DNA of 64,000 bases, from contig NZ_CP040174.1 in the NCBI RefSeq assembly GCF_007858535.1, forward strand, positions 1,426,001 to 1,490,000. Direction: 5' to 3'. Source of the stretch: Arthrobacter sp. UKPF54-2 (GTDB lineage: Bacteria > Actinomycetota > Actinomycetes > Actinomycetales > Micrococcaceae). Below, in pieces: positions 13,007 to 48,096 of this stretch (its first letter is position 1; every line of letters begins with the position of its first letter). The notes beneath the pieces are model-generated. The model was not told the DNA's origin and did no database searches. It saw only the letters and a program-made list of their open reading frames with translations. Position numbers and translations under genes: made by a program.

Positions 13007-13090
13007 GGGACTCAGCTTCCGTTACGTTCTGCCGCTGCGCAAGCCTTACCGGGTGTAAACTGGCCCAGCCCACAAGGGCGATTTTAAATA

Positions 13091-13212
13091 CGACAGGGGA
13101 GCGCCGCCGTCGGCAATCCGGAGCAGTCCGGGGATCCACAGGTGGGCGCTGAGAGTGCGGACAGCCGCAGACCCTCGAACCTGATCCGGTTAGTACCGGC
13201 GCAAGGGAGTCG
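13091..13212 (+). promoter_or_regulatory. TPP riboswitch (thi box)
   Basis: The conserved thi-box blocks are all present in order: GGGGAGC at 13097, GCTGAGAGTGCGG at 13148, then ACCCTCGAACCTGATCCGG at 13171 and TAGTACCGGCGCAAGGGAG through 13209. CGAC at 13091 and GTCG at 13209 can form P1. The P3 arm is extended by a G/C-rich hairpin. It lies about 80 nt ahead of ykoE and should turn the transporter off when thiamine pyrophosphate is abundant. Confidence 0.93.
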
Positions 13213-13268
13213 AGTTCTCAGGGTGCCCGGCACCACGGCGGAAGCCGCGCTCAGCCGGACCACCCTCC

Positions 13269-21202: not shown

Positions 21203-21244
21203 GACGGATCTCCTTCTTTCACGCTTGCAGCTCGAATTTCGATA

Positions 21245-21333
21245 TGCCGAGTATTCACCTGAGGCACCCCGCCGCGAAAGGGAGGGTTGCCGACCGGCCA
21301 GTCAGGGCTTGGCGCCGGGTCTCATTACTCACC
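21245..21333 (-). promoter_or_regulatory. SAM-IV riboswitch
   Basis: Read on the minus strand, the leader contains GCGCCAAGCCC, GGTCGGCAACCCTCC and GGCGGGGTGCCTCAGGTGA in that order, the hallmark blocks of the actinobacterial SAM-I/IV class. GAGTA (21326-21330) and TACTC (21249-21253) can form the closing helix. It ends about 45 nt before the DUF1737 start and should repress the DUF1737-rhodanese-metZ operon when S-adenosylmethionine is plentiful. SAM-IV rather than SAM-I is judged from the overall pattern. Confidence 0.82.
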
Positions 21334-46148: not shown

Positions 46149-46793
46149 ATGCCGCACCACGGTAACGAAGAAGAGCACGCTGGCGAGGGCCGGGACGAGA
46201 ACCAGAAGCCGGTGATCCACGACAACCGCAAGGTTGATCCGAAGACCGGCCAGGCCCGCCACCCCGACCAGGAACGCGCGGGGGACGCCGACGCCGGGGA
46301 CGCGCTGTCCCAGGCCGAGGACATCCTCAACAGCGTCGACGTTCCGGCAGCGGAGTCGGTGGCCCAGGGCGTCGACGCCGGGGAGGCGGAGGAACTGAAG
46401 AACGACCTCCGCCGCCTGCAGGCCGAGTACGTCAACTACCGCAAGCGGGTTGAACGCGACCGTGCCGTGGCAGGGGAGATGGCCGTCATCGGCGTCCTGA
46501 ACGCCCTGCTCCCGGTGCTCGACGACGTCGACGCCGCCCGGCAGCACGGTGACCTCGCGGACGGACCGTTCGCCGCGATCGCCGCCAAGCTGGAGAATGC
46601 GCTGAAGACCTACGGCTTGGTGCGCATTGATGAGACCGGCGTGGAGTTCGATCCCACGATCCACGAGGCCCTCATCCAGCAGCCCGGCCCGGACGTCGTC
46701 ACCGACACCGTCAGCCAGGTCCTGCGCTCCGGCTACAAGTCCGGCGACCGGGTGCTCCGCGCAGCCCAGGTCATCGTGTCTGTTCCGGCGTAG
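46149..46793 (+). CDS. grpE: Nucleotide exchange factor GrpE
   Basis: A 214-residue protein that starts 2 bp after dnaK. An acidic disordered N-terminus of about 80 residues is followed by a long coiled-coil helix (ELKNDLRRLQAEYVNYRKR) and the beta-domain with GVEFDPTIHEALIQQPGPDV near residue 160. It releases ADP from DnaK. A 322-bp gap with two large hairpin elements separates it from dnaJ. Confidence 0.97.
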   Translation: MPHHGNEEEHAGEGRDENQKPVIHDNRKVDPKTGQARHPDQERAGDADAGDALSQAEDILNSVDVPAAESVAQGVDAGEAEELKNDLRRLQAEYVNYRKRVERDRAVAGEMAVIGVLNALLPVLDDVDAARQHGDLADGPFAAIAAKLENALKTYGLVRIDETGVEFDPTIHEALIQQPGPDVVTDTVSQVLRSGYKSGDRVLRAAQVIVSVPA

Positions 46794-46810
46794 TCACCTT
46801 TGGCGCCTCC

Positions 46811-46930
46811 ACGCCTTCGCGGATGAGGGGGCCCCGCCCCTCCGCGTGGAGGCTATGGTCCTGCGGACCACAGCCTCCACGCTCCGGCAGGCCCGAAGCC
46901 ACACCCGGGCCCCCTCATCCGCTACGGCGT
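46811..46930 (+). repeat. 120-nt structured element, copy 1
   Basis: An exactly 120-nt unit built as a 24-bp outer stem (46811-46834 with 46907-46930), a 9-nt loop CGCCCCTCC (46835-46843), an 18-bp inner stem (46844-46861 with 46865-46882) closed by triloop TGC, and a 24-nt loop (46883-46906) starting TCCGGCAGGCCCGA. The outer stem has T.C and C.T mismatches at positions 6 and 8 only; the inner stem has one A.C mismatch. Copy 2 has the same plan in opposite orientation. No U-run follows, so a plain terminator is unlikely. I do not recognise this element. Confidence 0.9.
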
Positions 46931-46942
46931 TCAGCTTTCGGG

Positions 46943-46955
46943 TCACCTAAGGTGA
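46943..46955. repeat. Palindrome at the centre of the element pair
   Basis: TCACCT and AGGTGA flank a central A at 46949, within one base of the midpoint (46948) of the two inverted 120-nt elements. The whole 275-bp block is therefore nearly symmetric. It could be a protein site or the junction of the two copies. Confidence 0.55.
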
Positions 46956-46965
46956 GATGATCACA

Positions 46966-47085
46966 AGCTCGCAGCGATACATGGGCCCCGGGAGTGGCAT
47001 CGGGCCTGTCGGAGCCGGGTGTCTTGGGATCGCAGATCCCAAGACACCCGGCGAAGGGGCGGGGGCCCATGTATCGCGGAGAGCT
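46966..47085 (-). repeat. 120-nt structured element, copy 2 (inverted)
   Basis: Read on the minus strand it follows the same plan as copy 1: outer stem 47085-47062 with 46989-46966, 9-nt loop CGCCCCTTC, perfect 18-bp inner stem (47052-47035 with 47031-47014) with triloop TGC, and a 24-nt loop starting TCCGACAGGCCCGA. Each part has the same length as in copy 1. The mismatch bases at outer positions 6 and 8 are identical, while the pair between them changes from T:A to C:G. Loops are 32 of 36 identical; stems differ at 18 of 42 positions. It lies 30 bp before dnaJ. Confidence 0.9.
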
Positions 47086-47115: not shown

Positions 47116-48096
47116 GTGGCTAGCCAGGACTGGGTGGACAAGGACTTCTACAAGATCCTTGGAGTCGCCAAGGACGCTTCCGACGCCGACATCAAGAAGG
47201 CCTACCGGAAGCTTGCTCGGCAGCACCACCCGGATACGAACGCCGGTGACACCGCGTCGGAGAAGAAGTTCAAGGACATCTCCGAGGCGTACTCCGTGCT
47301 GTCCGACCCGGACGAGCGCCAGCAGTACGACGCCATCCGCGCCATGGGCGGCGGCGCGCGCTTCGCCCCCGGCGGCGCCGGTGGGGCCGGTGGCGGCGCG
47401 GGGTTCGAGGACCTCTTCGGCGGCCTGTTCACCGGCGGCGGCGGACGGCACTCCGGCGGCTACAGCACCGCGGGCGGCATTCCGCCCGAATTCGCCGACC
47501 TCTTCGGCGGCGGGGGCTTTGGCGGTGGCCAGTCCTTCCAGCGCGGCCCGCAGAAGGGCGCCGACCGCACCGCGTCGACCAGCATCTCCTTCGCCGGGTC
47601 CATCCGCGGCACCACCATCGGCCTGCGCGAGCCCGACGGCGAGGTCATTGACGTGCGGATCCCGGCCGGAATCAAGGACGGCCAGAAGGTCCGCGTCCGC
47701 GGCAAGGGCCAGTACGGTCCGGCCGGCAACGGCGACCTGATGGTCACCGTGTCCGTGAAGCCGCACGATTTCTACACCCGTGACGGGGACAACCTGCGCA
47801 TCCATGTCCCGGTCACGTTCCCGGAAGCCGCGCTCGGCGCCGACATCGAGGTCCCGACCATCGACGGCGACAAGGTCAAGGTCCGGGTGCCGGCCGGGAC
47901 GCCGTCGGGCCGGACCCTGCGCGTCAAGGGGCGCGGTGTGAAGCACACCAAGGCCACCGGCGATCTGCTGGTCACCATCGACGTCGCCGTGCCCAAGAAG
48001 CTGGACAAGGCCGCCGAGGAAGCGGTGAAGGCCTTCGCCGCGGCCACCTCCGGCGAGGACGTCCGCGCCGGCCTGGCAGCCAAGGCCCGGCTGTAG
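47116..48096 (+). CDS. dnaJ: DnaJ co-chaperone lacking the zinc finger (CbpA-like)
   Basis: A 326-residue J protein starting at GTG behind GAAAGGAAA. The J domain has HPD at residues 38-40, then a Gly/Phe-rich stretch to about residue 150, then two beta-sandwich C-terminal domains ([20 protein letters not shown] and [18 protein letters not shown]). No CXXCXGXG zinc repeats are present, so it is CbpA-type in build although it occupies the classic dnaJ position. It stimulates the DnaK ATPase. Confidence 0.95.

Follow-up and report, generated by a model that had tools for sequence, protein, structure and literature searches.

Can stems that covary around conserved loops be taken as evidence of a functional RNA? 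This question is raised by the gap between grpE (positions 46149–46793, + strand) and dnaJ (47116–48096, +), both identified by NCBIfam models below the curated cut-offs, in a window of 64,000 nucleotides (the whole stretch of DNA analyzed here) from Arthrobacter sp. UKPF54-2. The gap contains two structured elements, and an earlier note, made from the sequence alone, had claimed that their conserved loops on variable stems indicated selection on a folded single strand and on something that reads the loops. The same element was found in both orientations, inside and outside genes, and with and without its core, so that the question of whether covariation proves a functional RNA becomes directly testable.

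Unit 1 (46811–46930, +) and unit 2 (46966–47085, −) are 120 nt long and lie in opposite orientations, and their identical part lengths (24-9-18-3-18-24-24) were confirmed to the base. The 5' outer arm of unit 1 (46811–46834, +) consists of 5 bp, the TTC of a TNC/TNC internal loop and 16 bp. It is followed by conserved strand 1, CGCCCCTNC (46835–46843, +), the terminal TNC of which faces the TNC opening strand 2, and by an 18-3-18 inner hairpin (46844–46882, +) with one A·C mismatch and the tip C(TGC)G, which reads C(GCA)G on the opposite strand. Conserved strand 2, TNCGGCAGGCCCGANGCCACNCCC (46883–46906, +), in which a small GGC-N5-GCC hairpin is possible, and the 3' outer arm (46907–46930, +) complete the unit. 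Unit 2, read in element orientation on the − strand, comprises a 5' outer arm (47062–47085, with TCC in the TNC/TNC loop), strand 1 (47053–47061), an 18-3-18 inner hairpin with the tip C(TGC)G (47014–47052), strand 2 (46990–47013) and a 3' outer arm (46966–46989). Midway in the 35-nt spacer separating the two units lies a 13-nt palindrome, TCACCTAAGGTGA (46943–46955), and a similar sequence, CTCGCCTAAGGTGAG, is present at the same place in several relatives. The flank GCCTCCACGC (46805–46814; 46844–46853), at the edge of unit 1, has the sequence of the 3' arm of its inner hairpin a second time; an alternative hairpin is possible, and a similar flank was seen by eye in one other genome (G123, locus L067).

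When the units are compared in the same orientation, their loops differ at 4 of 36 bases (one in the 9-nt part, three in the 24-nt part and none in the 3-nt part) and their stems at 18 of 42 pairs. Both sides have changed at 17 of these pairs, which are still Watson-Crick, and the eighteenth is a T:A pair in unit 2, where unit 1 has A·C; all these counts, reported previously, were reproduced exactly. The 5'-TNC/5'-TNC internal loop common to both outer stems, with a T·C mismatch at position 6 and a C·T mismatch at position 8 in each unit, was absent from the earlier note.

The unit pair is not a product of chance. A pattern search of the 3.5-Mb genome of this strain identified six copies, the two units and four more. 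A covariance model (R1) built from these six recovered them from the same genome at E≤3.2e-15, as it must by construction, and nothing else below E 0.04. R1 gave matches at E≤0.1 in all 25 of the same-genus genomes searched and in none of 14 genomes that each represented a different family of the order outside this one. When 295 genomes of the family were sampled, 38 had matches at E≤1e-4; 23 of these belong to the same genus and the other 15 to six further genera. The unmatched genomes listed (all but 237) include the same-genus genome G174. Of 198 genomes sampled from Arthrobacter as delimited by GTDB, 185 were matched at E≤1e-8 in a search subject to the stricter filters that Infernal applies above 40 genomes; the 13 genomes without a match at this threshold include G001, which has an interrupted copy. 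Copy number ranges from one to eight per genome, and copies are also present in Pseudarthrobacter and Paenarthrobacter records. A scan of named genomes gave at least 120 stretches, of which 80 were inspected; the matches in other phyla among these lack a good strand 1 and look like chance matches to the fixed letters.

The searches of Micrococcaceae genomes and of Rfam proposed in the earlier note thus revealed a real family with further copies and no match to a described family, the two outcomes that the note had named as fatal to its claim being a lack both of further copies and of conservation of the gap in close relatives, and a match of this kind. In Rfam 15, nothing reached the gathering score on the element; at a relaxed cut-off, there were 14 weak matches up to E 5, the best scoring 26.8 bits against a cut-off of 41.8. 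No description of the element was found in the open-access literature searched, and this hairpin repeat family of Arthrobacter is apparently undescribed. Elsewhere in the window, a SAM-IV riboswitch aptamer (21216–21329, −) and a TPP riboswitch aptamer (13085–13225, +) score above the Rfam gathering score; there are no tRNAs in the window and one in 32 loci.

Fuzzy matching to both conserved strands in the fetched loci yielded 144 distinct sequences, each covering the element and 30 nt more; these copies are not independent and do not constitute a census. On the basis of neighboring genes, 140 of them were assigned to seven genes or gaps, corresponding to nine positions (the grpE–dnaJ gap and jetB hold two each), and four were unassigned. 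The element is, therefore, present between grpE and dnaJ, as initially described, but is not confined to this gap. Gaps between co-directional genes account for three of these places: the infB–rbfA gap, after infB (40 copies), the rho–prfA gap (29 copies) and the grpE–dnaJ gap (32 copies, 18 sense and 14 antisense). The other four are genes, with copies at the N-terminus of cysD (12 copies, seven sense and five antisense), in the linker behind the lipoyl domain of the E2 acyltransferase gene (eight copies), in the Wadjet gene jetB (17 copies, 14 in the C-terminal tail, two in the N-terminal tail and one unplaced) and at the N-terminus of an ABC permease gene (two copies). Gene identities were established with Pfam, NCBIfam and PADLOC, with RbfA also checked; E2, like GrpE and DnaJ, reaches its NCBIfam models only below the curated cut-offs, and the ABC permease gene was identified by BPD_transp_1 only.

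Orientation is not fixed. Among the assigned copies, 107 are in gene sense and 33 are antisense. In the C-terminal tail of jetB (three sense and 11 antisense) and in cysD, orientation varies between species. The two copies in the N-terminal instead of the C-terminal tail of this gene (L407 and L429) are both antisense. In the grpE–dnaJ gaps read by eye, a sense copy lies behind grpE and an antisense copy before dnaJ. Of the 144 copies, 39 lie in frame inside genes, in both orientations, and the gene frame is open through 38 of them according to a script and through the remaining one (L407) by eye. A 51-nt spacing between the conserved strands was found in all 39 in-gene copies, versus none of 101 intergenic copies. 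Two loci (L246 and L239) from species without the hairpin element in cysD carry other repeats in the same N-terminal tail, and the occurrence of several repeat families there suggests that this site tolerates them.

In general, the element consists of an outer stem of about 22–24 bp, a bulged core of two conserved strands (9 + 24 nt) and an inner hairpin of about 18 bp, with the outer stem broken by the TNC/TNC loop, 16–17 bp from the core, in a third of copies. Strand 1 reads CGCCCC-TNC and strand 2 reads TNC-GGCAGGCCCGATGCCACTCCC. The core is identical at 27 of 33 positions in at least 140 of the 144 copies, and strand 1 at seven of nine positions in at least 143, values biased upwards by the use of the loop motif for collecting the copies. 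Identity in the conserved strands is 0.947 within and 0.936 between loci, as against 0.674 and 0.437, respectively, in the outer stem; ungapped comparison of the 30-nt flanks gave identities of 0.30–0.52. The same core nucleotides encode different peptides in the two orientations, so selection on protein is unlikely to be the cause of this conservation, and it is reasonable to infer that something reads the core. The original statement that conserved loops are read by something stands, therefore, as to the near-invariant core on freely varying stems, its reader being a reasonable deduction.

The covariation claimed for the stems was borne out over the family. For 87 copies aligned to the model, in an alignment fitted to the structure, 25 of 29 stem pairs covary, with changes on both sides. 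The covariation score was 0.682, versus 0.153 in shuffles and 0.099–0.140 when partners were slid by 1–3 columns, and 95.9% of cells were paired, versus 66.3% in shuffles and at most 46.4% after sliding. Changed cells were two-sided in 691 cases and one-sided in 34, with 21 of these 34 at the last pair beside the tip. The weakest measure, the number of further pair types, was 68, versus 62.9 in shuffles, a value reached by 14 of 500 shuffles.

Three points nevertheless speak against stem pairing in the mRNA as the sole cause of this pattern. The first concerns G·T pairs, which do not exceed A·C overall. In the 144 copies, the inner stems contain 2303 Watson-Crick, 18 G·T, 52 A·C and 65 other cells, and the outer stems 3207, 75, 102 and 275, respectively; counted as distinct events, the ratio of G·T to A·C is 16 to 31 in inner and 54 to 71 in outer stems. 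G·T is the more frequent at rho–prfA (6 to 4 in inner and 12 to 10 in outer stems) and in the outer stems of antisense jetB copies (9 to 5). The second point comes from 78 close pairs of copies, which differ at up to 14 positions and are not independent of each other: single changes left 93 A·C, 50 G·T and 104 other mismatches, giving 247 single uncompensated changes, against 54 double Watson-Crick-to-Watson-Crick changes. Mismatches of all kinds thus arise and are resolved at a later stage, and the excess of single changes implies that template correction cannot be fast. The third point is template switching itself, which, according to the available text of two reports (PMC8794818, PMC8604942), creates and repairs stems between inverted-repeat arms and inverts the spacer. 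As this process makes and keeps perfect stems, covarying stems alone are no proof of selection on a folded strand. Spacer inversion of this kind would also explain the presence of both orientations in cysD and in the C-terminal tail of jetB.

The hairpin tips provide information about the strand that folds. The sequences cGNAg, cGNNAg and gCNNGc belong to classes of unusually stable DNA loops. On the strand opposite the core, 114 of 123 distinct inner hairpins have such tips (74 cGNAg, 29 cGNNAg and 11 gCNNGc), compared with 3 of 36 long hairpins outside the elements at the fetched loci (38 hairpins with five such tips before two lying in elements were left out, and with the poly-C/G locus L177 excluded). 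The 29 cGNNAg tips comprise 15 GNRA and 14 GNYA sequences; in RNA, GNRA would be expected to predominate over GNYA. The rule holds for 92 of 107 sense and 27 of 33 antisense copies, indicating that the tips follow the element rather than the gene. The TNC/TNC outer loop, which reads GNA/GNA on the opposite strand, occurs in 52 of 144 copies, 50 of them with the loop 16–17 bp from the core; a GNA/GNA loop on the core strand was found in none of the 144. This loop is unevenly distributed (26 of 32 copies at grpE–dnaJ and 1 of 29 at rho–prfA), and the GNA/GNA pattern recurs at the junction of the core with the inner hairpin, where T-N-C ends strand 1 and starts strand 2. For 140 of the 143 whole elements, the opposite strand was predicted to fold more stably, with RNA as well as with DNA parameters. 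Only one of the two strands is thus structural, and it differs from the mRNA strand in most copies. Folding at the DNA level is the simpler reading, although an antisense RNA would also fit the A·C excess and the GNA tips. The proposed selection on a folded single strand is, therefore, upheld only in part: the covariation and the conserved core argue for it, whereas the in-gene copies, the 33 antisense copies, the lack of an overall excess of G·U over A·C and the structure-stabilizing tips, the strand of which follows the element rather than the mRNA, argue against it.

We read the three intergenic gaps in genomes G000–G024, in which 24 infB, 24 rho–prfA and 25 grpE–dnaJ gaps were found. After infB, there were 20 cores, one core with an interrupted strand 2 (L162), one relic consisting of the 5' arm and strand 1 (L157) and two plain hairpins without the element, in the genus members G008 and G023. 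The rho–prfA gaps contained 12 cores, three interrupted cores (L210, L212 and L221), one other structure, three relics with another palindromic repeat next to them (L227 and L228 recognized by eye, L229 by script) and five core-less plain hairpins with the same kind of stem (L209, L215, L222 and L224 by script, L219 by eye). The sense site of the grpE–dnaJ gap held eight cores, one interrupted core (L188), one plain hairpin on the same stem (L187), seven other long hairpins and, in eight cases (seven by script and the shortened L193 by eye), another cap, GTGCCCGCTTCGCGGTGCCC; seven genomes had an antisense core before dnaJ. This second cap (L181, L182, L189, L192, L193, L198, L200 and L202) has a conserved GTGCCCGCTTCGCGGTGCCCTCCAC and also a TTC tip, and its stems appear to be related to type-1 stems. 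The rho–prfA gap (L219 and L224–L229) contains a third palindromic repeat, TGCAACGCGGGGTCA...TGACCCCGCGTTGCA, which lies beside, or is fused with, the type-1 element or its relics. Within jetB, one locus (L419) has only the palindrome ACGACGACGGTGC-T-GCACCGTCGTCGT, and three others (L412, L413 and L433) have that kind of stem plus the core. The cap carried by a given stem thus differs on the time scale of species, possibly through insertion, loss or recombination with other alleles.

Some of these structures are nested. An element with its own stem lies between older infB arms in L155 and L156, and behind an older 5' arm in L166 and L173. At nine loci (L162, L188, L210, L212, L221, L396, L398, L426 and L433), another hairpin module, often with an TCGCAAGCTCG or CGAGCTTGCGA tip and also found inside genes, occupies the small tip of strand 2. 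In the rho–prfA locus L208, the 5' arm of one allele was seen by eye to be combined with the 3' arm of another, as recombination through the core would give. Each core-less operon gap read also holds some hairpin. On a tree of the 25 genomes (five genes, 17 to 25 genomes per gene), core states and sites look, by eye, mosaic and scattered. We suspect that the 3' arm may be an inverted copy of host upstream sequence at some loci (a terminator-like half at infB, cysD in L257 versus L259, and E2 in L382); deletion relics keeping the 5' arm and strand 1 look the same as such cases.

Taking these observations together, we put at roughly 0.48 the probability that these elements are small palindromic DNA repeats of the Arthrobacter group, acting at the DNA level, with arms kept by template switching and a core read by a putative protein. 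The element would work as a single-stranded or extruded DNA hairpin rather than as part of an mRNA. Template switching during replication would be the main process keeping its arms complementary and would also invert the core between them, and the core would be maintained by a putative protein that binds or cuts the hairpin. Copies would persist where a long hairpin is tolerated, in operon gaps, protein tails and linkers, and might spread between species mostly by homologous recombination of housekeeping loci and, rarely, by insertion into a new hairpin tip. The family, its sites, the covariation, the conservation of the core, the two orientations, the in-frame copies, the strand asymmetry, the same stem with or without the core and the nested caps are observed; template switching at these loci, a protein reader and the mode of spread are what we infer from them. 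No protein reading the core was found. The natural partner, a Y1 transposase (PF01797), was absent from all 34 genomes searched, with 5 of 14 control genomes positive, and a Y1-type partner transposase, of the IS200 or RAYT kind, is excluded at Pfam sensitivity in these 34 genomes. Several other observations go against the DNA-repeat interpretation: the hairpins of the core-less gaps could indicate an mRNA role of the hairpin itself, 107 of the 140 assigned copies are in gene sense, G·T is more frequent than A·C at single sites, the TNC/TNC loop is unevenly distributed, and single uncompensated changes are commoner than double ones in close relatives.

The hairpins of the core-less gaps and the predominance of sense copies also speak for a cis-acting mRNA structure, in which an operon-gap hairpin would tune termination, processing or stability and the core would serve as an internal loop binding a protein or a ligand. 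Of the seven places, three lie between genes of the same direction, and a hairpin is present without the core, as in the plain hairpins after infB in G008 and G023. We nonetheless consider such a structure improbable, given the 39 copies inside coding sequence, the 33 in antisense orientation, the failure of G·U to exceed A·C in the mRNA strand overall, the location of the stable tips on the other strand in sense copies and the absence or replacement of the core at the same stem in sister species. Despite the covariation, the fixed orientation in a transcribed, largely non-coding leader or gap and the tolerance of G·U on the transcribed strand that would be expected of a structured cis-regulatory RNA were not observed, with 33 of 140 copies antisense, 39 in coding sequence and 18 G·T against 52 A·C cells in the inner stems. 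A self-cleaving ribozyme was likewise rejected, by inference from the copies in coding sequence in both directions, and, in the copies inspected by eye, the outer arm is not immediately followed by a long T run of the kind expected for an intrinsic terminator.

Alternatively, the core might be a mobile hairpin cap, a non-autonomous element of some 72 nt, formed by a hairpin with the two conserved strands on either side, which would insert into the tips of pre-existing DNA hairpins and move out of them again. Transfer would occur via the folded strand opposite the core, with a putative recombinase of no known family, and the cap would compete with at least one other type of cap at the same tips. 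The same kind of stem with and without the core, the nesting (L155, L156, L166, L173 and the nine strand-2 tip modules), the inner-hairpin types seen by eye to be common to E2, cysD and jetB, the strand-specific fold and the second position in jetB, with two copies in the N-terminal tail, are all consistent with this possibility. We nevertheless regard it as doubtful: the 140 assigned copies occupy just nine positions, by eye neither a target duplication nor an unambiguous empty site was noticed among the sites compared, the Y1 transposase is absent from the 34 genomes, and the relics in which the 5' arm and strand 1 are kept point to the occurrence of losses. An origin in phages or plasmids was rejected: a blastn search with unit 2 gave no match among plasmid or phage records, and none of 10 viral contigs matching a 17-letter pattern has strand 1 nearby. 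The recurrent sites, the conserved core and the use of either orientation would also suit a binding site for a chromosomal DNA-binding protein (involved in architecture, replication or repair) fixed by selection. This explanation is very unlikely, as copy number varies from one to eight between species, presence at a given site differs between close species and no match at E≤1e-8 was obtained for 13 of the 198 genomes of the genus (G001, with its interrupted copy, among them).

This family offers a clean example from nature of overwhelming textbook covariation combined with evidence that, in large part, points away from RNA. It serves as a practical warning for covariance-based RNA discovery in actinobacteria. 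If the core did prove to be a hairpin-tip cap, this would be a new way for a small DNA to move.

Several known systems resemble the element in part. It is a small palindromic repeat, like Rickettsia palindromic elements (RPEs), other bacterial MITEs and REP-like sequences, but it lacks the two tested marks of such repeats, a common terminal sequence and a Y1 partner. The attC sites of integrons have stems of variable sequence, conserved unpaired features and a single folding strand. The Arthrobacter element shares these three traits and is set apart from attC sites by its location in housekeeping genes, where no cassette structure was seen. REP and BIME sequences are short hairpins of strand-specific folded DNA, with conserved stems and hundreds of copies. 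The fold of the element is similarly that of a short hairpin and strand-specific, but, unlike REP sequences with their RAYT, its stems vary, its copies are few and the Y1 domain is absent from 34 of 34 genomes. The RPEs, in the available description (PMC10969869), and MITEs are, like the element, palindromic, about 120–150 bp long and dispersed in several copies between genes and, in some cases, in frame inside them. The Arthrobacter family differs from them in that its outer arms are only 44% identical between loci, with no common terminal sequence; its conserved part is a bulged core; its few copies lie at recurrent sites; and both orientations are read in frame, with no target duplication noticed by eye. 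Hairpins maintained by template switching resemble it in having arms that stay complementary through multi-base changes and in spacer inversion, as far as the available text of the two reports goes (PMC8794818, PMC8604942), but they are the product of a mutation process rather than an element, and the invariance of the core is not explained in this way. Finally, the double-hairpin and repetitive hairpin elements of mitochondria are, according to the available text (PMC2800124), dispersed in spacers and genes and potentially mobile, and the Arthrobacter hairpins are similarly dispersed in spacers and genes. In the sponge mitochondrial elements, as described in the same text (PMC2800124), the stems are conserved and the loops vary, the opposite of the pattern in the Arthrobacter family.
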